Origin: Paramacrobiotus metropolitanus
Lineage: Eukaryota > Tardigrada > Eutardigrada > Parachela > Macrobiotidae
DNA length: 21,346 nt
Direction: 5' to 3'
Assembly (NCBI RefSeq): GCF_019649055.1
Contig: NW_026570669.1
Location: forward strand, 1 to 21,346
Shown piece after piece: positions 1 through 19,982 of the stretch. The notes beneath the pieces are model-generated. The model did not search any database and was not told the origin of the DNA. It saw only the letters and a list, made by a program, of their open reading frames with translations. Each line of letters starts with the position of its first letter. Positions within the stretch are counted from its first letter, which is position 1. Both the position numbers and the translations under genes were made by a program.

Positions 1-171
1 GCGACCGAAGAAAACGCATACATCCGCATTAAAGTGGGCACAAATGAAGACCACCTGGCATATATATACACAGTGGAAGGGAAGTTGCTGACGAAGGAGA
101 GAGTTCGGCCGAAACCGACAGCAGACTCAGACCCGAATAAACGAACGCTAGACGATTGCGAGTCAACCTGA
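1..171 (+). CDS. C-terminal end of an unrecognised protein (5' end outside window)
   Basis: Frame 1 is open from the first base to a TGA at 169-171, giving 56 residues. The composition is protein-like: a beta-type stretch (AYIRIKVGTNEDHLAYIYTV, residues 6-25) followed by a charged tail rich in K, R, P and D that ends in CEST. There is no start codon inside the window, so the gene continues to the left. It lies on the same strand as ORF1-ORF3 and shares their purine-rich codon use, so it probably belongs to the same gene block. I do not recognise the family; the short, charged end would fit the tail of a larger enzyme or structural protein, but nothing catalytic is visible. It could also be a chance open frame, since 56 codons is short. 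Confidence 0.45.
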   Translation, partial: ATEENAYIRIKVGTNEDHLAYIYTVEGKLLTKERVRPKPTADSDPNKRTLDDCEST

Positions 172-223
172 AATATACCGAGGGGACGTGCAGAAAAGTG
201 ACGCTGACACTCCACTTCTGGCG

Positions 224-823
224 ATGGAACAACAGAATGTGTAACCGCAGTAATCGTCGACCCGATCACAGGAGATCGATTCCATACGCTCCATGGGATG
301 TGTCGGAAGAGAGCGCCGAGCACGCTAATCGGGCAGCACTAGAACAGCTGTGGAACTTGATACCAGTAAGTGAACGTCAAGATCCCTAGTCCAAGCGAAC
401 ACATTGATCAGTATGATGCGACATCGAGCGGAAATAGATGAAGCCCGTTTCCGACTAACAAGAAGAATGGAAAATGGAGCGTATAAAACGGTGTTTTATG
501 ACGCGAAGAAAAACCTTTGTGGGGAGATCGTCACACAGGGACAGACGGTTGAAACACCGCACTTGGAAAGTCAAGCCCAACATCCGGCACGAAGAAAGTG
601 GAGTCGGAGAGATGGCAGAGGCCTCCGTAGCCGAAATGGCAGGAACGGAGAGTACCCAGCGACCATCGAAACAAGATGAGCCAGAAGAGGAAACAGATGA
701 CGGTGAGTCGGAAGAGGAATCGACCAACGAAAAGAAGATGACGAAGCAGTTGAGGACGACGATGCCTCACCAAAGTTGTCGTTAAACCCTCCAAACTCGT
801 CGCCCGAGTTGCCCCTAAACTAG
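224..823 (+). pseudogene. Frame-broken coding stretch upstream of ORF1, first part
   Basis: Protein-like sequence continues on the + strand but changes frame several times. An ATG at 224 meets a stop at 242-244. Frame 1 from 244 reads TAVIVDPITGDR; frame 0 then reads a plausible segment ending ALEQLWNLIP near 367 and stops at 387-389. Frame 2 from the ATG at 413 gives a segment containing KTVFYDAKKNLCGEI. Frame 0 then carries a very acidic tract (EEETDDGESEEES, about 680-720), and frame 2 again carries an acidic, Ser/Pro-rich end stopping at TAG 821-823. No pyrimidine-tract acceptors are visible that would turn the shifts into introns, although CCA|GTAAGT at 365-373 and a GTGAGT near 698 look like donors. 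The stretch is therefore either a decayed gene with several small indels or a stretch with sequencing indels. The product was probably a charged, partly disordered protein; the family is unknown. Confidence 0.4.
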
Positions 824-829
824 AATGAA

Positions 830-1386
830 CCGTGAAAAGGTCAAGAAAGGTGACTTTTAAAAAAACGGAAGGAAGAAGAAGATAAGAAGAATAGAGTGGT
901 GATGAAAGTGAGAGCACAAACACCCGGAAGAAAAGGGAGAGAAAGAAAAGACGAACCGTCGTCTCATGATGTCGAAATCTTGGACGAATCAGTCGGTGAA
1001 GTGGAAGAGGTCATCCACACCTATTATTCCAGAAATTCGTTATCGAATCGGCAACATCAAAGTTAAAGGTCACCAAGCCTGAGCCGTCAACATCCAAAGG
1101 AAAGGTCATAGCGGTAAAACAGATCGTACCGGTCGTCATCTCGGCATCTACTACGAAAGAGCGTAGGGAGAAAGGAATGCGCGAGAAAGCGAAACGGGAA
1201 ACGTCCCGCGAATCGGAAGTATCGGAGGTGAGCCTCCCAAGTACGTCGACGGTTAGTACGAGGTCACACACGGACCCGAAAACAACCAGATCAAGAACCG
1301 TGGAGCCAGGAAGCCTAGCGGAGGCTCTTGAAAAAGGGAAAAAAGCAAAGAGCGAACCCACAAAGCCGAAAAAGAAAGGAAAGTAA
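830..1386 (+). pseudogene. Frame-broken coding stretch upstream of ORF1, Lys/Arg/Ser-rich end
   Basis: Three overlapping + strand frames each look coding for part of the way. One ends at TAA 1064-1066 after the acidic segment ILDESVGEVEEVIHTYY. One ends at TGA 1080-1082 after IIPEIRYRIGNIKVKGHQA. The third is open from 1000 to the stop at 1384-1386 (ATG at 1177), and its product is rich in K, R, E, S and T, ending EPTKPKKKGK. The last frame by itself could encode a 69-residue basic peptide. Its position 24 nt before the ORF1 start, its shared strand and similar codon use suggest a cistron in the same block that has suffered frame-changing indels. Exact AAAGGTCA octamers occur at 836, 1065 and 1101. 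No family is recognised. Sequencing error rather than true decay cannot be excluded. Confidence 0.35.
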
Positions 1387-1403
1387 GCCAGGAAAATTGA
1401 TGC

Positions 1404-1419
1404 ATTGGCGATGGCCAAT
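1404..1419 (+). promoter_or_regulatory. Small perfect hairpin carrying the ORF1 start codon in its loop
   Basis: ATTGGC (1404-1409) and GCCAAT (1414-1419) are perfect complements around the loop GATG (1410-1413), so the ATG at 1411-1413 sits in the loop. This is visible in sequence; an effect on translation is only inference, because a 6-bp stem with a 4-nt loop can arise by chance. Confidence 0.3.
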
Positions 1420-3126
1420 TACATCGAACCGGATGGAGAAAGTGAACTCGATTACTCAGGAGATGAAGCAGAATTCGAAGATCCTGACAGCGACAATTTG
1501 ACCACAATTGACGAAATCATCGACGCATTCGACGAAGCGGAGAAGAACTTTACACGGATAAGAACGACATCAGTAACGTCGAAATTCAGAACGGGTCTAA
1601 AGAAATACCTGAGAAAAGAAATGCACCGAAGTTTCACCAAACAGAAGTTCGATGTGGTATTAGAATATGCTCGGAATGCGGGAAAACTTCTCCAGAAACA
1701 CCCGAATTTCGCGTATAAGGCCAAGTTATTCAGACCGTCCAGTTCGGATAAGTCGTTGACGACTCCAAACGAAGATACCTCTATGCGAGTAGAAAGGGCG
1801 ATCGCGGGAATGACAAGCCCATTGGGGTCAACGAGTCACCGGATCAGCCAATACATCAATGCCGTTTGGAATGACGGGAAAGGGATGATTAAGGAAATCG
1901 ATACAGCCACTGAACGTGTATTGCCAAGGCTGATAAAACAGAATATCCTTTCAACGACGAACGCACATAAAGGATATCCGATCCGATACACGAGAGTAGG
2001 ACTGATACCGCCGGAAAAACAAGTCCATTGTAATATGTCCGACAGTCAGGAGATGGATAAGGCACCATCGGGTGGAGATCCAGCAACTCCCATATTGAAT
2101 CGGATTGCGCAGCTAACAGCTGAAGAAGAAACCGCCCAGGCTTCCTCTAAGAAAGTGACGAAAAAGAGAGGACCTATGGATGTGGAATCGGAAGAAAGTG
2201 ACGATGATGCCCCCATCCAAACGCCTTTGGAACCGGTGACGGAAAAGTCTAAAGGTCACGAGACTTCAGAAAAACGGGAGAAAGAAAAGGTCATGCTCCC
2301 GATGGACAAGGCAGCGGCAGACGCAGAAGCAGCCTCCGCGCGACAAGTGTATCAGAAATCATTGTTCGCACCATTGAAGGATGCCTTCGAGAAAGAACGG
2401 CCAAAGTCGGCGGGTGAACTGGGAGGTCATGAGACTTTACCACAGGAAGAGAAAACGGTTGAACCGAAATCTGCCCAGTCATCATCAGGCTCGTTGGCAA
2501 AATTAAAGATAGATGAACAGGCGACCGATGCAACGGACTCGGCAATATCCCCCCAGAAAACAGAGACTAGCGGTACAAAAACAAAAGAGCCGACAGATTA
2601 CACGCTAGGCGCGCCCTTGGATGTGACTAATCGGACATGGGGCGAAGTCCAGGCTGCACTCCAGAATATTAGGGAAGCCGAAATGCTTGGCGCAGACTTG
2701 AAGAGACAAGTCGCTGAAAATTCGAATGGAAGGTCATCACTCAGCATGACCGAACGGGTCTTGAAAAGAGCATATAAGGAAGGAAAGTTGGGATGCAAAT
2801 ATAACAAGGACAACAAAGTTATTTACTACCTTCCGAAACAGGGCACGGACCGCACGCCCAGACTGAAAATGGAATTGGAAGTCTGGAAAATAGCCATCAC
2901 AGATGTGGCCCTGGACGCCATCGGTGGTACCAATGGAGTGTCATGGAATGACCTTTCGAATTTCATGGCCGTCCATTATGAGTTGGGAGAATTGAATATT
3001 GAGAACGATAAAGAATGGATAAAGAACGCCGTTGAAGCATTGGTAGCAGATAACGTGCTTCACATTAACCAGGATGGCCGAATTGACTTCAAGCCGTATA
3101 AACCGCCGGCGAAGGAGTCTGAATGA
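1411..3126 (+). CDS. ORF1: 571-aa acidic protein with possible C-terminal winged helix, unrecognised
   Basis: The uninterrupted frame has its first ATG at 1411 in a good eukaryotic context (GGCGATGG) and its stop at 3124-3126. The N-terminus is very acidic (residues 1-40). Residues about 40-190 look helical and folded. Residues about 200-380 are low-complexity, charged and rich in E, K, S, T and P, and are probably disordered. Residues about 390-571 look folded; within them about 455-560 resemble a helix-turn-helix/winged-helix layout (SWNDLSNF...EWIKNAVEALVADNVLHI, then the strand DGRIDFKPYKP). There are no transmembrane segments or signal peptide. The architecture (acidic start, long linker, compact end domain) is typical of phosphoprotein-like or chromatin/nucleic-acid-binding accessory proteins, but that is analogy, not homology. 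Exact AAAGGTCA octamers at 2251 and 2286 are read in different codon phases. The frame being intact over 1.7 kb argues that the gene is functional or recently inserted. Confidence 0.75.
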   Translation: MANYIEPDGESELDYSGDEAEFEDPDSDNLTTIDEIIDAFDEAEKNFTRIRTTSVTSKFRTGLKKYLRKEMHRSFTKQKFDVVLEYARNAGKLLQKHPNFAYKAKLFRPSSSDKSLTTPNEDTSMRVERAIAGMTSPLGSTSHRISQYINAVWNDGKGMIKEIDTATERVLPRLIKQNILSTTNAHKGYPIRYTRVGLIPPEKQVHCNMSDSQEMDKAPSGGDPATPILNRIAQLTAEEETAQASSKKVTKKRGPMDVESEESDDDAPIQTPLEPVTEKSKGHETSEKREKEKVMLPMDKAAADAEAASARQVYQKSLFAPLKDAFEKERPKSAGELGGHETLPQEEKTVEPKSAQSSSGSLAKLKIDEQATDATDSAISPQKTETSGTKTKEPTDYTLGAPLDVTNRTWGEVQAALQNIREAEMLGADLKRQVAENSNGRSSLSMTERVLKRAYKEGKLGCKYNKDNKVIYYLPKQGTDRTPRLKMELEVWKIAITDVALDAIGGTNGVSWNDLSNFMAVHYELGELNIENDKEWIKNAVEALVADNVLHINQDGRIDFKPYKPPAKESE

Positions 3127-3136
3127 ATGGGACGAG

Positions 3137-3173
3137 TGTAATATGCAGCGAGTAATGAACCCTGCATATTACA
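3137..3173 (+). terminator. 12-bp perfect hairpin just after the ORF1 stop
   Basis: TGTAATATGCAG (3137-3148) and CTGCATATTACA (3162-3173) pair perfectly around a 13-nt loop, 10 nt after the ORF1 stop codon. No AATAAA is seen nearby and no T-run follows, so this is not a bacterial-type terminator. A role in 3' end formation, mRNA stability or separation of cistrons is inference, supported by the similar hairpin after ORF3. Confidence 0.65.
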
Positions 3174-3449
3174 GAAAAAGCATAAAATAGTTAAAAACGA
3201 ATGAGAAACTTTACGGAAAATTGAAAGTGAAAAGGTCAACTTGAGGAATAGCGGCGATAAGACTAATAGAAAAGGTCACAGGAGTCAGAAAGTGCTGATA
3301 ACGTGAGAAAGGTCACCACGTTACAGTGATAGAAAGGGCAGCAGGAGCTAGGAAAGTCTCAGCTCAGTAACGGAATAGGCGTAAAAATGCTAGAGAAGCC
3401 TTGATAATGGATAAGATGGAAAAGATTAACGTGGAAGAGTTACTATGAT

Positions 3450-3470
3450 GGATTGTTTTCTGATTGCAGA
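3450..3470 (+). other. 3' splice acceptor (or trans-splice site) before ORF2
   Basis: The tract GATTGTTTTCTGATTGCAG ends with AG at 3468-3469, with branch-like CTATGAT just upstream, in an otherwise purine-rich region. The predicted exon starts at 3470, and the first ATG (3486, context AAAATGG) opens ORF2. A donor is not assigned; candidates lie far upstream (365-373 or outside the window). A spliced-leader acceptor is an alternative. Confidence 0.5.
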
Positions 3471-3485
3471 TTCAAAACGGAGAAA

Positions 3486-4016
3486 ATGGCACAGAAAGGT
3501 CACGCCACCCCTAAAAGCTCAGGACCCGCATCAGAGATAAACAGATCTACGGGCTATAACCCAAAGTGTCCGGACTGTTTACGGAATAATAAAAAGGTCG
3601 ATAAGAAATTCCCCTGCTATGCATGCATTCACAAGTTGGGCGACCCACATATGGTTTCACTCGTGGGGATTACGGAAGCTAAACGGGGGAACATGGACGT
3701 TTTTCGAAACCTCATCAGCGCGAGGAACTATGGCAGCATCCCAGTTGAGGAGCGGATGCTACTCGAGGATCGCTACCGGGAAGCGATCCAGAATAACGAA
3801 AGCGGCTGGGATGAGACTCTGGAGCCATTGAAATGCCCACAGACGGACGCATACCGGAAGAAGTTTGAGGAAGAACAAGAGAAGATGCGGCGGCAACAGC
3901 TGGAGGACGAACTCGGGCGAAGATCAATGCGGCGAATCAAAGGCGAGCGAACAGGCCGCACGAGAGAAGCAGCCCAATCCGTCGAGTTCGACTGTACCGA
4001 CAGCCAGCCTCAATGA
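3486..4016 (+). CDS. ORF2: 176-aa protein with CxxC-x12-CxxC zinc finger, unrecognised
   Basis: The start is the ATG at 3486 in a good context; upstream in-frame codons have no other ATG after the splice acceptor. Residues 28-47 hold C28-x2-C31-x12-C44-x2-C47 followed by His49, a likely zinc-binding knuckle. Residues about 60-110 look folded and helical. Residues about 115-165 are a highly charged E/K/R/Q helix or coiled coil (KKFEEEQEKMRRQQLEDE). The last 152 nt overlap ORF3 in another frame. Protein-likeness fades after about residue 145, where ORF3-frame reading becomes more natural, so ORF2 may be the N-terminal part of an ORF2-ORF3 fusion made by frameshifting or splicing. AAAGGTCA at 3495 encodes Lys-Gly-His near the N-terminus. 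It is probably an RNA- or protein-binding accessory protein; no family is recognised. Confidence 0.6.
   Translation: MAQKGHATPKSSGPASEINRSTGYNPKCPDCLRNNKKVDKKFPCYACIHKLGDPHMVSLVGITEAKRGNMDVFRNLISARNYGSIPVEERMLLEDRYREAIQNNESGWDETLEPLKCPQTDAYRKKFEEEQEKMRRQQLEDELGRRSMRRIKGERTGRTREAAQSVEFDCTDSQPQ
3865..4016 (+). other. ORF2/ORF3 overlap, candidate +1 frameshift zone
   Basis: Both frames are open here for 152 nt. The ORF2 frame looks coding to about 3920 (coiled-coil residues ending EDELGRR), while the ORF3 frame looks coding from about 3918 (SGEDQCGESKASEQAAREK). The changeover falls around the codons CTC GGG CGA AGA. A shift by +1 (or -2) would join the zinc finger to the RS protein. No slippery heptamer of the -1 type and no clear intron are visible. 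A single-base deletion in an originally continuous gene is an equally good explanation. Confidence 0.45.
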
Positions 4017-6255
4017 CGACGAAGCACAGCTGATACGCCAGTCGCTCATTATTCAAATCGATACGCTGACGAGCGATCCGGCGGCCATGCAACAAGACCT
4101 ATTTGATGCGCTGTTACGGGAAAAGTTAAGACTGCAAAAGGGTTTTGCTCCGGCACCATACATAAAGAAAGCAGTCGAAGAACGTATGGAGGAGCTGCGT
4201 AAATCCCGCCAGACCGAGAGCAATGTTTTACAGGCGCTCAGAGGCTTTCGACGAGATGATGTGTTTACACGACCCCGTTCGCCTCCGCAGAGAGAAAGGT
4301 CACGCGGACATTCACGAGAACATGAGCGGACTTCTGAAAGACGAAGTGAAAGGTCACGTGAACATTCCCGGGAAAGGACACGGGACTACCGAAGCGAAAG
4401 GTCACGCGAGCGTTCTCGCGACAGAGACTACCGTGGCGGAAGAGGATGGGTGCGCCATGGAAATGAGATAACGGAGACAAGCATCCAACGAAAAATCGAC
4501 ACGGCAAAGATTCTAGCAGCGACTAGAGGACGTGAAGAACAACGGCGTGCGGAGTCATTCCGCACAGAACCTGAAAAGGAAGGTCATCAGGTGCCGTTAG
4601 GAGTCGGATTCCGTAATCGCAATGTTAGAATGTCAACACCCGAAAGGTCATGGGACAAAAGACGCGAACACACGCGGAATCGAACGCCAGACCCACAGGA
4701 CAAACGATGGCAGGAAAGAGCCAGATATTATGCGGGGTTTGAATCTGGCGCCAGTAAAAGGTCATCGAGTGCAGAAAGGGAAGACTCACCCCCGAAATAT
4801 CAGCGAATGGAGTCAATAGTCCATGTAGTGAATCCCATCGTGAGTGCGGTACAGGAAGATGACACGATGGAAGGGCCCGGCTCAGTCGCAGAAGCGCCTG
4901 CGGCGCAAGAAGATGACATGATGGAAGAGCTCGGTTCAGTCGCAGAAGCGTCCCAAGATAACGTGATACACCGAAGAAATGTGGTCCTTGACAGTGACCC
5001 CCAACCATCCACATCGAAAGGTACTGAACCGCTGCAGAGCGGACGACGCGAACAAGAAAGTCGGCGCGAGCCGGATGAACGCGGTCGGCGAACGAATTCC
5101 CGATTCAATAACCGACACCCCGACACAATCGACATGGTATACGATATGCGCGACACCGATGAACAAAAGACGGAAATCTGCCGATACATGGGGATTGAAG
5201 ACGATTCGGCGGATGCGAATAAGATTCACACAATTCTGAATCAGCTGCGTCAATTTTTATTCGATTCGGGCTATGCGAAAGAAATTAAAGAGGGAGTGGA
5301 ACAAGGAATTTTCCGTCAGTTATACATTCCCCGCGACTCAGCAAGGGATTGTTACCTCCCTATCCGACGAAACGGATTACATAGCCTTTTGGATCTGAAT
5401 TTGTTGGACGTGCCACTGGATACGACCGATCCAATCGGGATGACACAGTTTTATTATAGAGACTATCCCGAACGACAGGAATATGTGGCTCAGTTCGTGT
5501 TACGACATGTGAATCCAGCCTTTAAGTTGCTCGCAGCAAGAGCATCGATAGGATTACAAGTAGATCCTAAAGACCATGCCGCAAGAAGGATGGGGCAGAA
5601 GGTCTTCGCTGCGAGATTGGCACATTATAAGACACAGAACCAGTTGGTGTCTAACACTATGAAGGACGATATCCCATTGCTCTTTCGACCTCATGTGGCG
5701 AAACTGGGTGAACCCATGGAACATGTCGGAATAGCCCATACAGCAAGAAAGGCGCTTAAAAAGTGTAAGATACGAATGGAAAAGGGCAATCTTACACAAC
5801 GCCATGCCTCCCAGGTTGAAGAGAGGATTAATAAGATCAAAGACACCATGGGAAGTGACTACGTCGAACCCTTTGACGGAATTGAAATGTACATCGACGA
5901 GTTCCTGGTGAAGAAAAGTGATCGACGCCCAGAACGCGCCCCTAACCAGATAGGACGACGCGGCTTAAGAAACCAGCAACTCCGCGATAACCTCGCTGAC
6001 GTGCAACGAAGATTGGCGGATGACCCTAACAACCGGAGACTCCGGTTGGAAGAGAATGACGCACGCCATCGGGTAGAGGCGGTTAAACGCAGTCGCCAAG
6101 GGAAAGGTCGCGGTCAGCGAGAAGTTGACCCGGAAAAGGTCATGGCAGTTGATTCCACGGAACCAGTTGACCGAACGTCTGACCGTAACCAACCAGAAAG
6201 TTCTAAGAAGCGCCCGCCAAGAGATGGCGAGGACGATTCAAATGAAATGGAATAG
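3865..6255 (+). CDS. ORF3: long RS-rich protein overlapping ORF2, unrecognised
   Basis: The open frame runs 3865-6255 (796 codons plus stop). It has no ATG until 4087, whose context is weak, so translation either starts at 4087 (722 aa) or continues from ORF2 by a +1 frameshift or a splice in 3865-4016. Layout by codon from 3865: about 45-130 is helical and probably folded; about 138-195 is an arginine-serine domain (RERSRGHSREHE and similar), as in splicing factors and some nucleic-acid-packaging proteins; 330-365 contains an 18-codon tandem duplication (QEDD..E..GSVAEA); about 415-690 is a globular helical domain (QFYYRDYPERQEYVAQFVLR lies in it); the tail is basic and ends in an acidic EDDSNEME. 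No catalytic motif, signal peptide or membrane segment is seen. A nuclear, RNA/DNA-binding structural role is inference from composition. Six exact AAAGGTCA octamers fall in it, five encoding Arg-Ser and the one at 6135 reading Lys-Val. Confidence 0.7.
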   Translation: MRKNKRRCGGNSWRTNSGEDQCGESKASEQAAREKQPNPSSSTVPTASLNDDEAQLIRQSLIIQIDTLTSDPAAMQQDLFDALLREKLRLQKGFAPAPYIKKAVEERMEELRKSRQTESNVLQALRGFRRDDVFTRPRSPPQRERSRGHSREHERTSERRSERSREHSRERTRDYRSERSRERSRDRDYRGGRGWVRHGNEITETSIQRKIDTAKILAATRGREEQRRAESFRTEPEKEGHQVPLGVGFRNRNVRMSTPERSWDKRREHTRNRTPDPQDKRWQERARYYAGFESGASKRSSSAEREDSPPKYQRMESIVHVVNPIVSAVQEDDTMEGPGSVAEAPAAQEDDMMEELGSVAEASQDNVIHRRNVVLDSDPQPSTSKGTEPLQSGRREQESRREPDERGRRTNSRFNNRHPDTIDMVYDMRDTDEQKTEICRYMGIEDDSADANKIHTILNQLRQFLFDSGYAKEIKEGVEQGIFRQLYIPRDSARDCYLPIRRNGLHSLLDLNLLDVPLDTTDPIGMTQFYYRDYPERQEYVAQFVLRHVNPAFKLLAARASIGLQVDPKDHAARRMGQKVFAARLAHYKTQNQLVSNTMKDDIPLLFRPHVAKLGEPMEHVGIAHTARKALKKCKIRMEKGNLTQRHASQVEERINKIKDTMGSDYVEPFDGIEMYIDEFLVKKSDRRPERAPNQIGRRGLRNQQLRDNLADVQRRLADDPNNRRLRLEENDARHRVEAVKRSRQGKGRGQREVDPEKVMAVDSTEPVDRTSDRNQPESSKKRPPRDGEDDSNEME
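4852..4959 (+). repeat. 54-bp tandem duplication inside ORF3
   Basis: Units start at 4852 and 4906 and keep the reading frame, giving two similar 18-residue segments (QEDD-M-E-GSVAEA). The units differ at several positions, so the duplication is not brand new. It is typical slippage in a disordered, acidic linker. Confidence 0.7.
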
Positions 6256-6280
6256 TGTTGATCGTTAGGATCACACTATT
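6251..6280 (+). terminator. Hairpin containing the ORF3 stop codon
   Basis: AATAGTGT (6251-6258) pairs with ACACTATT (6273-6280); after one bulged T, GATC (6260-6263) pairs with GATC (6269-6272) around a 5-nt loop. The ORF3 TAG (6253-6255) lies inside the stem. ATTAAA, a variant polyadenylation hexamer, begins at 6278. It mirrors the hairpin after ORF1, so hairpin-at-stop seems to be a rule in this block. Confidence 0.65.
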
Positions 6281-6284
6281 AAAA

Positions 6285-6905
6285 GGGCGTCTACGGCAAT
6301 TGTCGGTACGTCACAAGAATGAGAAATGGTGTTGTATAAAGGCGACGTGACATATTAACATTAACTGCATTTGTGTATTTGTTGTTTTCAGCGTTTATAG
6401 CACAGAACCGCAAAAGGATAAAGAAATCATGTGGAGCAGCGATTGGGGTTGAAATTGATTCGGTCTATAAAGCCGGCCCCAAGGGAGTTGCTACGGCAAT
6501 CAGCCGGCTCTCCTCCTGAAGCGATTCAGTGTTATAAATTTGCAAGAGAAACTACGGTAATCAAGCCGGATCTCTTGAATACGAAAGTGGGCCACAAGCG
6601 GCGAAAAAGAGAAAGACAACAGGTGGAAATTTTATTGGGGTAAACTTGATGCGGCCGTCAGCCGGCCTCATTAGAGTTGCTACGGTAAACTATGCCGGCA
6701 ATCTCTCCAAGCGAATCAGTGTTATAAGTCAACGAGAGAAATAGCGGTAACCAAGCCGGATCTCTCGTACGGAAGCTGGGCCACAAGCGGCGAACAAGAG
6801 TAAAAGATTTAATGTGGAAGCGTCATGGGGTAAATTTAATGCGGTAGTTAGCCGGCCCCATCAGAGATGTTACGGTAAACTCTGCCGGCACTCTGGCCGC
6901 TCGAG
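6285..6905 (+). ncRNA. Structured RNA: about 190-nt tandem modules of TACGGTAA/GCCGG hairpins
   Basis: Units start at 6431, 6623 and 6814 (periods 192 and 191; the third is partial), and a lone related hairpin lies at 6286-6312. Each full unit has a GGGG/CCCC-type stem, then hairpin type I (GAG..TACGGYAA..GCCGG..CTC at 6482-6514, 6673-6706, 6862-6895), then type II (6543-6577, 6732-6768), then the 16-nt constant GGGCCACAAGCGGCGA. Stems change together: CAAGAGA/TCTCTTG in one unit is ACGAGAGA/TCTCTCGT in the next, and TTGGGG/CCCCAA (6443-6448 with 6477-6482) is ATGGGG/CCCCAT (6825-6830 with 6856-6861). The loops keep ACGGTAA and GCCGG, whose CGG and CCG can pair. Paired changes in stems with fixed loops indicate selection for RNA structure. 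Known ribozymes or riboswitches are not matched by eye. It lies in the predicted exon after the acceptor at 6391. Confidence 0.7.
6355..6391 (+). other. Strong 3' splice acceptor downstream of ORF3
   Basis: A branch-point-like CATTAACT at about 6359 is followed by a T-rich tract and TTTCAG, with AG at 6390-6391. The predicted exon begins at 6392 and carries the structured repeat RNA. The next ATG (6429) opens only seven codons, so the exon is not obviously protein-coding. Confidence 0.55.
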
Positions 6906-6947
6906 ACATATTGAAGTTGGATGTGCGACGGAGAGGTCAACTTAAAA

Positions 6948-7230
6948 GTTTTACCAGGGAGGCAAGCGAAGAAATGCTTGAAAGTCGGCAAAAATCGGCT
7001 AAGTTCCTCCATGACCTTTAATGGAAGTTGAAGAGAAGTTGGATGACCTTTGGGATCATTACCGCCCAAGAGAGTCACCGTATTAGAATTCAAAACGCAT
7101 GACCTTTTGGGACCATTAACCCAAATGAGTCGCACATCTCAACGGATCATCTCGACAAAGGATGACCTTTATCAGGGAGGAAGCGAACTACGCTTGTCAA
7201 CATGACGTCCCTCCATGACCTTTATTGGAT
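6948..7230 (+). ncRNA. Second hairpin array with TGACCTTT in or beside loops
   Basis: Two modules begin with GGGAGG (near 6956 and 7175), enclose a small AAGC..GCTT stem, close with CCTCC, and are followed by ATGACCTTTA and TGGA (7011 and 7215). At 7008-7025 TCCAT pairs with ATGGA so that GACCTTTA forms an 8-nt loop; at 7212-7229 TCCA pairs with TGGA around the same sequence. Two further modules (7044-7070, 7100-7125) have TGACCTTT running into a TTGGG/CCCAA or TTTGGG/CCCAAA hairpin. The inner stem differs between copies (CAAGC/GCTTG against AAGCG/CGCTT), a compensated change. The octamers are exact complements of the AAAGGTCA copies upstream. Confidence 0.6.
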
Positions 7231-7420
7231 CTCATTTTCAAGTCGTACGATGATACGCACCTTATTCCAAAGATGAAGCAGTATTCCTAAAGTCGTACAT
7301 TGATACGCACCAGATTCTCAAGCGGATTGTGATGAAAGTCGCACTATGGATGCGCGGAATTGCTCAAGCGAGCGGAATGGGCCAAAGTGCGGAAAACGGT
7401 GGACAGGACCTGTGACCTTT
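7012..7420 (-). repeat. Inverted cluster of the AAAGGTCA octamer (six exact TGACCTTT)
   Basis: Exact TGACCTTT starts at 7012, 7044, 7100, 7163, 7216 and 7413 on the + strand, which is AAAGGTCA on the minus strand. I found no exact forward copy within this cluster. Six copies in 409 bp is far denser than chance. The last copy lies about 20 bp before the composition change near 7440, so the cluster may mark the right end of the element. Confidence 0.85.
7241..7357 (+). ncRNA. Three short hairpins of the form CGTA..TACG, about 50-nt spacing
   Basis: AGTCGTA-loop-TACGCAC occurs at 7241 and 7291 (exactly 50 nt apart), and AGTCGCA-loop-TGCGCG at about 7337. The stem CGTA/TACG of the first two becomes CGCA/TGCG in the third, a compensated pair change. 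Each loop is 6-7 nt. This adds a third class of repeated hairpin to the same 3' region. Confidence 0.5.
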
Positions 7421-7439
7421 ACGAGTCAGAAATGGAGGA

Positions 7440-8230
7440 TCCTAGTCTACATTTGATTAATAATTTTGTTGATCTTATAACTGTTGATCTGTTTTTGTAT
7501 TAGAATTGATATGGAATAGTATTTTGATACAGATCTCTTTATTTTCACATAGTGCATCTGGAATTGATGTGATAAATGGAATAAGAGAATTTGATGTTTT
7601 TGAGCACGCACAGACACCGGCAACCGTCTTTTCGTGGATTCGGGAGTGTGTCCAGCCTCAACGGAGCTCGGCATCCCCCCAGAGGCATGTGAGACGAGGC
7701 TCACTAGCGTTCACGTCCGTGGCGCTAGGCGCTACGCCTTTGGATTACGGTCTGTGACGTGTCTCGCTTTGATTGGCTTGAGTTGTGTTAGTGGGCGCGG
7801 CATAGCACGTGCTGCACAGTTTTGCACAGTGTGGAATTGGCTCCACGTTTTACGATCGAGCTGCGCCGATCACTTGTTGGTTTCTGGTCTCCAGACTTTC
7901 AATATTATTAAAAGTCAGCTATTAGCGGTGCGACGTTTCGCGATTCCGCGTAGTTCGCTATACTTATCGCATAGCTCACTCCACGGGATAGATTCCGTTT
8001 CTGTCTCCGTATCTGGATCACAGTTGGATCTAGCATTAGACTGTGTTCGACTGTGTATGTCTTGTATATTGTAGACAGTACATTATTATGTATATTGTAG
8101 TCCACCGCACGGTTACAGTACGTAATAAAGGTCCACCGCACGGATCTCGTTATGTGAACGAGTGATCGAGCTACCAATGCTGTCCAGTGCGGTTGATTCG
8201 TAGTTTTACCATGTTCTCATTTTTCGCACA
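7440..8230. other. Non-coding, GC-richer segment with short direct repeats
   Basis: The purine bias of the left block ends near 7440. From about 7600 to 8160 the DNA is GC- and pyrimidine-richer than the flanks. An open frame at 7634-8074 lacks an ATG except near its end, so it is not a credible gene. GTCCACCGCACGG occurs at 8100-8112 and 8131-8143, and GTATATTGTAG at 8064-8074 and 8090-8100. AATAAA lies between the GC-rich repeats (about 8123). Acceptor-like tracts end near 7551 and 7892. The segment could be a solo LTR or untranslated exon, but no TG..CA ends with a target duplication were found. Confidence 0.35.
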
Positions 8231-17707: not shown

Positions 17708-17950
17708 CGCTCGGTCACTCACTCATCTAGGGATTTTATTCCCTGCACAGCGGTGGTAGCTCGGTCACTCACCTACCTAGCGATTTTGTTTACTGGACAG
17801 TGGTGGTAGCTCGGTCACTCACTTACCTAGCAATTTTGTTCACCTAGCGATTTATTGCTCGGTTATCACTCACCAAGCGATTTCATTTTGTTCACTGAAC
17901 AGTGGTAGTAGCTGGGTCACTCACTACTAGAGCAGGTTTGTTCACTGAGT
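17708..17950. repeat. 50-bp tandem repeat array
   Basis: TCGGTCACTCAC starts at 17711, 17761 and 17811, exactly 50 bp apart, and degenerate copies start at about 17859 and 17911. Each unit continues with CCTAGCGATTTTGTT and CAGTGGTGGTAG-like sequence. No coding frame runs through it, so it is a minisatellite-type array. Confidence 0.8.
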
Positions 17951-19765: not shown

Positions 19766-19982
19766 GCTTCTTTCGACCCTGCCACCAGTGTCAAAAACAA
19801 TTATGGAATTATAAGTTAGAAAGTAAAATCCAAAAATATTCAATAACTGTTCAAATGTAAATGTAGAAACCGTGTATACAAGCCAAAATCTGTGACGATT
19901 TCCCGTACACGCAGCCAGCTCCCGTGCGGACTCAAAAAGGTCACCTGTGCACGCAGCCAACGCTTCACCTTCACCTTCACCG

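Follow-up and report, generated by a model that had tools for sequence, protein, structure and literature searches.

A conserved octamer matching the NR4A receptor site runs through the genes of a giant Ty3/gypsy retrotransposon in a tardigrade

Introduction

Why would a mobile element carry one eight-letter word, letter for letter, dozens of times through its own genes? The question is raised by the first 21,346 nucleotides of contig NW_026570669.1 (C449 in our numbering) of the tardigrade Paramacrobiotus metropolitanus, here called the window, whose positions 1-8040 (+ strand) are assigned, by their match to a complete copy, to the 3' third of a giant Ty3/gypsy long terminal repeat (LTR) retrotransposon cut by the contig start. 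The word, AAAGGTCA, is hereafter the octamer, forward when it reads along the strand of the element's genes and reversed when it lies on the other. Transposon regulatory sites are usually thought to be confined to LTRs or untranslated regions (UTRs), whereas the selection described here is near-absolute, acts on one word inside coding sequence and extends along 24 kb; moreover, a close sister element has no octamer, and unrelated mobile elements of this host carry it too. We tentatively propose, at slightly less than an even chance, that it is a docking site on double-stranded DNA, most probably for a host receptor of the NR4A/HR38 type, which would keep the element expressed.

Octamer density in the window and in complete elements

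The whole window contains 23 exact octamers, against a mean of 1.07 in 100 dinucleotide shuffles (standard deviation 1.03, maximum 5). A sequence-only reading had reported 15 forward copies at 836-6142 and six reversed ones at 7012-7420, and all of them are present. The forward copies start at 836, 1065 and 1101 (836-1108), at 2251 and 2286 in open reading frame (ORF) B (2251-2293), at 3231, 3271 and 3308 in the gap between ORF-B and ORF-C (3231-3315), and at 3495, 4295, 4349, 4397, 4643 and 4757 in ORF-C (3495-4764), where the last forward octamer of this copy also lies (6135-6142). The reversed copies form a cluster in the 3' UTR, at 7012, 7044, 7100, 7163, 7216 and 7413. The same reading held the first interval to be exclusively forward and erred by one copy, a reversed octamer in ORF-B at 2949-2956 that does not figure among the losses seen in the five copies compared below; a lone forward octamer stands at 19936, beyond the element's end. 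Its statements that all three codon phases are used in coding DNA and that copies also lie inside the ORF gap hold. Codon-preserving shuffles had been named beforehand as one test able to overturn the claim, and they do not reproduce the count: the window's coding DNA has 11 forward and 1 reversed octamers, against 0.78 and 0.03 in 400 such shuffles (maxima 6 and 1).

The complete copy, hereafter the C1 copy (G000:C1:3926538-3951144, 24,607 bp), is 95.9%, 94.5%, 94.3% and 92.2% identical to the matching stretches of window 1-8040. It has the features of a Ty3/gypsy element: a pair of direct LTRs of about 357 bp (98.9% identical), a TGGTAGCAGAGC tRNA primer site after the 5' LTR, the target-site duplication CAAC on both outer flanks and, by domain search, a pol in gypsy order (RVT_1, RT_RNaseH, then Integrase_H2C2 and rve), with three further ORFs downstream. 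Along it stand 93 exact octamers, 65 forward and 28 reversed (about 3.8/kb), and the octamer is the most enriched 8-mer on either strand. Coding stretches hold 62 of the 93, 54 of these as AAAGGTCA; in 19,230 bp of coding DNA the 54 forward and 8 reversed copies compare with 5.94 and 0.60 in 400 codon-preserving shuffles, an enrichment of 9.1-fold and 13.4-fold, respectively. The 5' leader carries 11 reversed octamers, the first eight spaced 20-45 bp, and the 3' UTR six reversed ones, while the octamers of the body are mainly forward with some reversed. None lies in the LTRs, which are too short for the absence to mean much.

A diverged relative (C1:202-220 kb), represented by one damaged copy with 74-79% nucleotide identity in parts of pol, has the same layout. 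In the stretch tested it holds 60 forward and 24 reversed octamers, the reversed ones clustering in both UTRs, and its coding DNA has 48 forward and 14 reversed copies against 7.12 and 0.64 in codon-preserving shuffles (6.7-fold and 22-fold). Relative to Markov expectation, the exact octamer is enriched 118-fold in the C1 copy and 58-fold in the diverged relative. The second condition named beforehand as refuting the claim, equal abundance of the word across the genome, fails as well. The 169.8 Mb searched (533 contigs) hold 42,584 copies, whereas the backward reading of the word occurs 15,540 times; the former figure counts the giant element family and comes to about 0.25/kb. Outside the family, 55,319 bp of sequence contain six (0.11/kb).

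Selection acts on the nucleotides of the word

Conservation was followed in five further copies (L014-L018), 81-89% identical to the window and related to one another, so that their counts are not independent events. The window's aligned octamers are exact in 20 of 22, 18 of 22, 17 of 22, 19 of 21 and 19 of 21 cases (93 of 108 in total), while random 8-mers are kept in 42, 46, 25, 25 and 28%. At codons whose amino acid is conserved, the third base within octamers is identical in 135 of 136 cases (28/28, 26/27, 28/28, 27/27 and 26/26), against 63-80% outside them. Each of these copies also holds 2-9 octamers absent from the window's row of the alignment, a few only through gap placement. When the C1 copy is set against the more distant diverged relative, with 62% identity over what aligns, both have the exact octamer at 32 of 68 aligned sites, compared with 6.1% for random 8-mers. 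Collectively, the excess over codon-preserving shuffles, the retention of octamers and the constancy of synonymous third positions bear out the earlier view that selection acts on nucleotides: it holds the word at this level inside genes.

The word is also sharply bounded. Its 24 one-mismatch variants total 43 and 50 copies in the two elements, about twice the expectation, and the most raised among them are the three position-1 variants taken together (10 and 13 copies, 3- to 10-fold). The base that follows the octamer, base 9, is C in 96, T in 52, A in 27 and G in 2 of 177 cases in the two elements, G being rare on both strands; in L014-L018 it is T in 54, C in 42, A in 17 and G in 1 of 114.

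Orientation follows composition in the body but not in the UTRs

The element body is A-rich, with an AT skew mostly of 0.2-0.4. Codon-preserving shuffles alone predict a forward to reversed ratio of about 10:1 (5.94:0.60), to be compared with 54:8 in the C1 copy. Since this bias is predicted and both strands are enriched, the polarity of the body is not special; its forward excess mostly reflects base composition and is not a strand signal, and polarity as a signal of the body was rejected. The strand polarity noted at first thus stands for the UTR clusters, which are reversed against composition, and not for the body. For the same two reasons, the objection that receptor sites are not normally strand-biased falls away for the body.

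In the UTRs, 26 of 27 octamers over four stretches are reversed (C1 copy 5', 11/11, and 3', 6/7; diverged relative 5', 5/5, and 3', 4/4), whereas composition predicts a reversed share of 26-51%. A real orientation preference is confined to these clusters and is reversed in both families examined, although their octamers are not independent events, as flanks are shared and partly tandem. The orientation may be simple inheritance through tandem duplication and common descent. As a separate observation on A-rich coding DNA, runs of seven A on either strand are strongly depleted relative to codon-preserving shuffles, both in the C1 copy (3 vs 19.9) and in the sister element C97 (2 vs 30.1).

Families with and without the octamer

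Elsewhere in the genome, ten ordinary gypsy loci (L019-L028; 36-43% identity in the reverse transcriptase, RT) contain three octamers in 33 kb. They and C97 have the gypsy-type RT/RNaseH seen here but no octamer enrichment. Among ten further RT loci, compared over 1.8 kb each, L031, L032 and L036 (97-98% RT identity) have 4-5 octamers each; L033 and L034 (93%) and L029 and L030 (61%) have none, and three distant loci have 0, 0 and 1.

C97 (G000:C97:70681-94692; L039-L041), the sole sister element read whole, is complete: its 367-bp LTRs are 100% identical and its reading frames long and open, although no more than 3 bases (CTG) agree at its flanks. It is probably a very recent insertion. Its RT is 93% identical to that of the octamer element and the two have post-pol ORFs in common, yet C97 has no octamer in 24 kb, and at none of 90 aligned C1 sites does it carry the word. 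Given its identical LTRs, any factor that reads the octamer would not be a general requirement for transposition. That C97 actively avoids the word is not supported (0 vs 1.35 expected in coding DNA, with 14 of 60 shuffles also at zero). The search for a replacement word in C97 found no octamer of comparable sharpness and a modest excess of AGCTGA in coding DNA (42 vs about 15); AGCTGA, with 45 forward and 13 reversed copies, might be C97's own word.

In a nucleotide RT tree the two octamer families are joined (98/99) apart from C97/C44, the diverged row being a long branch, while RT protein trees leave the order of the three families unresolved. Because the nucleotide tree groups both octamer families, a single gain of the octamer on one branch of the family would be the simplest history.

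Arrays in unrelated transposons

Close triplets of the octamer number 1,405 in the genome (they overlap, so that separate arrays are fewer), against one for the word read backwards. Among roughly the first 100 listed, most look by eye like giant-gypsy sequence. Arrays outside gypsy were read at five triplet places and at L011 and L012. In L042 and L043, DNA_pol_B_2 (Maverick-like) genes contain what looks like an intron holding a reversed array (L042:2170-2360 with 6 exact copies, L043:2310-2484 with 4); the two arrays have different spacers but the same word. Over 4.5 kb each, L042 has 7 reversed and 0 forward octamers, L043 6 reversed and 2 forward. L045, an LTR-type element, has a Retrotrans_gag match and, ahead of the gag frame, an array of forward octamers (7 forward, 0 reversed in 4.0 kb); its two copies found are 99% identical, which makes a conservation comparison uninformative. 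L046 (700-2440) belongs with L012 (1200-3790), a foldback-like repeat in which AAAGGTCATCCACCTTTCTG units form inverted arrays; a first look across the genome gave 171 candidates for it, 40 of which were scored. L011 and L044 are unclassified DNA with octamers; at L011:2428-2580 four forward octamers occur, three with AT-rich sequence before and CC after, possibly a promoter or an unknown repeat. That array orientation differs between element types argues for duplex DNA as the thing recognised, as far as these loci can tell.

What may bind the octamer

The nuclear receptors of the NR4A group comprise NGFI-B, Nur77 and Nurr1, with HR38 in flies, and their response elements (NBREs) are known as isolated enhancer or promoter sites. 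As the sequence-only reading had suggested, the octamer is the NR4A-type word: the introduction of PMC4777543 gives the NR4A monomer site, the NBRE, as AAAGGTCA, while its discussion prints AAACCGTA once. Exact copies number 93 and 84 in the two elements, and position 1 shows a strong preference for A. C at this position, which is expected for NR5A/ERR sites, occurs in 3 and 4 copies (5.3- and 4.2-fold), far below A. The genome has 63 zf-C4 exon matches, of which 34 stretches were read. One of them (L064, G000:C45:297502-297642), a single exon of a DNA-binding domain (DBD), finds its best PDB matches in NGFI-B (1cit), NR4A1 (6lc1) and Nurr1 (6l6l), ahead of RXR; L047 matches NR5A, and the remaining exons are presumably ERR-like and others. 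An NR4A-like receptor would accordingly be the best single candidate for the binder, and the octamer the predicted target of its DBD. Compared with the NBRE, the likeness lies in the identical word and in a host exon for an NR4A-like DBD; the difference is that the octamer occurs in dozens through transposon genes rather than as isolated sites, with binding that is putative. Titles and abstract openings on the octamer or NBRE together with (LTR) retrotransposons yielded nothing of this kind.

The observed basis of the proposal is the word, its density, its nucleotide conservation, its enrichment on both strands, its restriction to some families and its arrays in unrelated transposons. The octamer, followed by C or T, sometimes A and rarely G, would be a duplex docking site for a sequence-specific DNA-binding protein. 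One giant Ty3/gypsy clade would have acquired it and would retain about 90 copies along 24 kb, coding and non-coding alike. The binder would most probably be host-encoded, an NR4A/HR38-type nuclear receptor that takes the word as a monomer, and a protein bound along the whole element could, in the cells in which transposition takes place, hold its chromatin in an open or transcribed state. Copies losing sites would then leave fewer descendants, and selection would hold each site. Protein binding, the NR4A-like identity and the benefit, whether expression or escape from silencing, are here what we infer.

Several points weigh against this proposal. The preference for A at position 1 is strong without being absolute. 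Many nuclear receptors have AGGTCA as their half-site, and the 63 zf-C4 exons include an NR5A-like one. Receptor sites normally lie in promoters or enhancers, which makes their presence through 24 kb of coding DNA atypical. Base 9 is G in some non-gypsy arrays (3 of 6 in L044, 1 of 7 in L045 and 1 of 6 in L011). The UTR orientation is unexplained beyond inheritance, the ordinary gypsy loci L019-L028 lack octamer enrichment around pol, and C97 has no octamer despite its identical LTRs.

A broader idea, possible though doubtful, is that the one octamer serves as a shared passport of selfish DNA, adopted convergently by gypsy, DNA_pol_B_2, LTR and foldback-like elements, so that a single protein would license expression against silencing; in the giant gypsy the marking would run through the genes and override synonymous drift. 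Two testable questions follow: whether selfish elements evade silencing by carrying docking sites for one protein from end to end, in the manner of VANC in plants, and whether a nuclear receptor acts as such an anti-silencing protein in animals.

Alternative explanations

The competitor that survives best, while still unlikely, is that a post-pol protein of the element itself binds AAAGGTCA in its own DNA and lifts silencing, the other array carriers being bystanders or parasites. Its formal signature is that of VANC21 in Arabidopsis VANDAL21. PMC5735166 describes a 9-base motif, YAGTATTAY, in which single-base changes drastically cut binding; it is dense in one family, rare in related families and set in one-orientation arrays in non-coding parts, and its density is thought to set VANC21 localisation. 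The octamer is likewise short, intolerant of single changes, dense in one family and rare in relatives (93 in the C1 copy vs 0 in C97), and its non-coding arrays likewise keep to one orientation. A role for NR4A or any other host protein is itself putative, which favours this reading. The host and class of element differ, VANDAL21 being a plant DNA transposon and the present element an animal LTR retrotransposon. Moreover, most octamers here are coding and under synonymous constraint, whereas a VANC-type motif would be mainly non-coding, and arrays occur in unrelated elements.

The post-pol ORFs speak on both sides. Both octamer families have extra ORFs, and the sister element lacks the octamer. 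ORF-C is the only one of these ORFs matched in all three compared families: its amino-terminal frame (3453-4016, 187 aa), a Cys module with the motif CPDC-x12-CYAC, is 43% identical by tblastn to the diverged family, where the aligned frame has a stop, and the module is also found, 56% identical, in the octamer-free C97. The remainder of ORF-C (3865-6255, 796 aa, with an Arg/Ser/Glu-rich stretch) is 48% identical to C97 and matches the diverged family only over residues 53-133 (33%). ORF-B (1405-3126, 573 aa) has a homologue in C97 (42% identical), while in the single diverged octamer copy neither ORF-A nor ORF-B is detectable, which, like the ORF-C module of C97 and the arrays in unrelated elements, goes against an element-encoded binder. 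Pfam gave nothing for ORF-B or ORF-C except a match of the ORF-B C-terminus to the linker-histone (winged-helix) family PF00538 (E 3e-4, 21.4 bits, below the curated cut-off of 22.4), and AlphaFold models made without alignment (mean pLDDT 41.8 for ORF-B and 49.0 for the ORF-C N-terminus) are too poor for fold comparison. A linker-histone-like end, albeit sub-threshold, would be unusual for an LTR element, and the region aligns in C97. A DNA search with window 2600-3120 returned 88 candidates, and the 40 scored are all 84-100% identical.

A role in RNA is distinctly unlikely. Forward AAAGGUCA could pair with the reversed UGACCUUU of the UTRs; alternatively, packaging, export or stability of the 24-kb RNA could depend on a small-RNA seed or an RNA-binding protein that reads the word. 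The exact 8-nt sharpness does resemble a seed or pairing rule, and two families have a reversed cluster in each UTR on either side of a largely forward body. Yet in coding DNA both strands remain enriched after correction for composition and codon use, G is avoided at base 9 whichever strand the octamer lies on, and no partner set was seen in the stretches read of L042 (reversed only) or L045 (forward only). Packaging and RNA-RNA pairing, both raised by the sequence-only reading, become less likely because the arrays of unrelated elements are mainly of one orientation.

Improbable, too, are handles on the double-stranded cDNA rather than on chromatin, by which a host factor bearing a nuclear-import signal or a compacting protein would coat the long molecule for import, and an insulator or barrier of the Su(Hw) kind. 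Coverage of the whole 24 kb fits coating, but no regular octamer spacing was found (mean 247 bp, ratio of standard deviation to mean 1.14), and both roles are conjectural. To our knowledge, insulator sites are not spread through coding DNA, and we take the leader octamer to be a different word from the Su(Hw) site. The analogy itself is one of number: the Drosophila gypsy insulator is, according to PMC2493044, made up of twelve clustered repeats that bind Su(Hw), about as many as the 11 reversed octamers clustered in the leader of this gypsy-type element. Unlike that cluster, the octamers cover the whole 24 kb and the 3' UTR, with orientation differing between body and UTRs.

An artefact of A-rich composition, codon use, tandem duplication or protein repeats deserves next to no credence: composition explains most of the forward bias and some sites do lie in tandem or protein repeats, but the shuffle counts, the synonymous conservation and the zero copies of the similarly A-rich C97 refute it for the presence and conservation of the octamer, and it holds only for body polarity. 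Equally hard to credit is a splicing signal TGACCTTT, branch point plus pyrimidine tract, since the better branch point CTGAC needs the avoided G at base 9 and most octamers of the complete element are coding, even if the apparent intron of L042 that holds the array ends in TGACCTTTACAG.

Further features of the window

Upstream of ORF-B lies the end of the post-pol ORF-A (1-1386), whose frame is broken in the window copy; the counterpart of window 1-1330 is L005:8549-9900, a stretch overlapping the end of the 1000-aa ORF of that copy. Rfam gave no window match at gathering scores. In the assembly, the nematode SL1 pattern has 0 exact matches, which speaks against a nematode host, and a search for COX1 found none. 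The 3' LTR at 7688-8040, recognised by its match to the C1 copy 5' LTR, runs from TGTGAGACGA to TAGCATTAGA and contains no octamer. The 3' UTR (6256-7687), from the last ORF to the LTR, includes a 190-bp tandem repeat of 2.2 copies at 6471-6894 and, at 7240-7322, two 33-nt direct repeats that are 82% alike, have AAGTCGTAC and TGATACGCACC in common and adjoin the octamer cluster. Outside the element, a 50-bp tandem repeat of 2.7 copies occupies 17709-17843.

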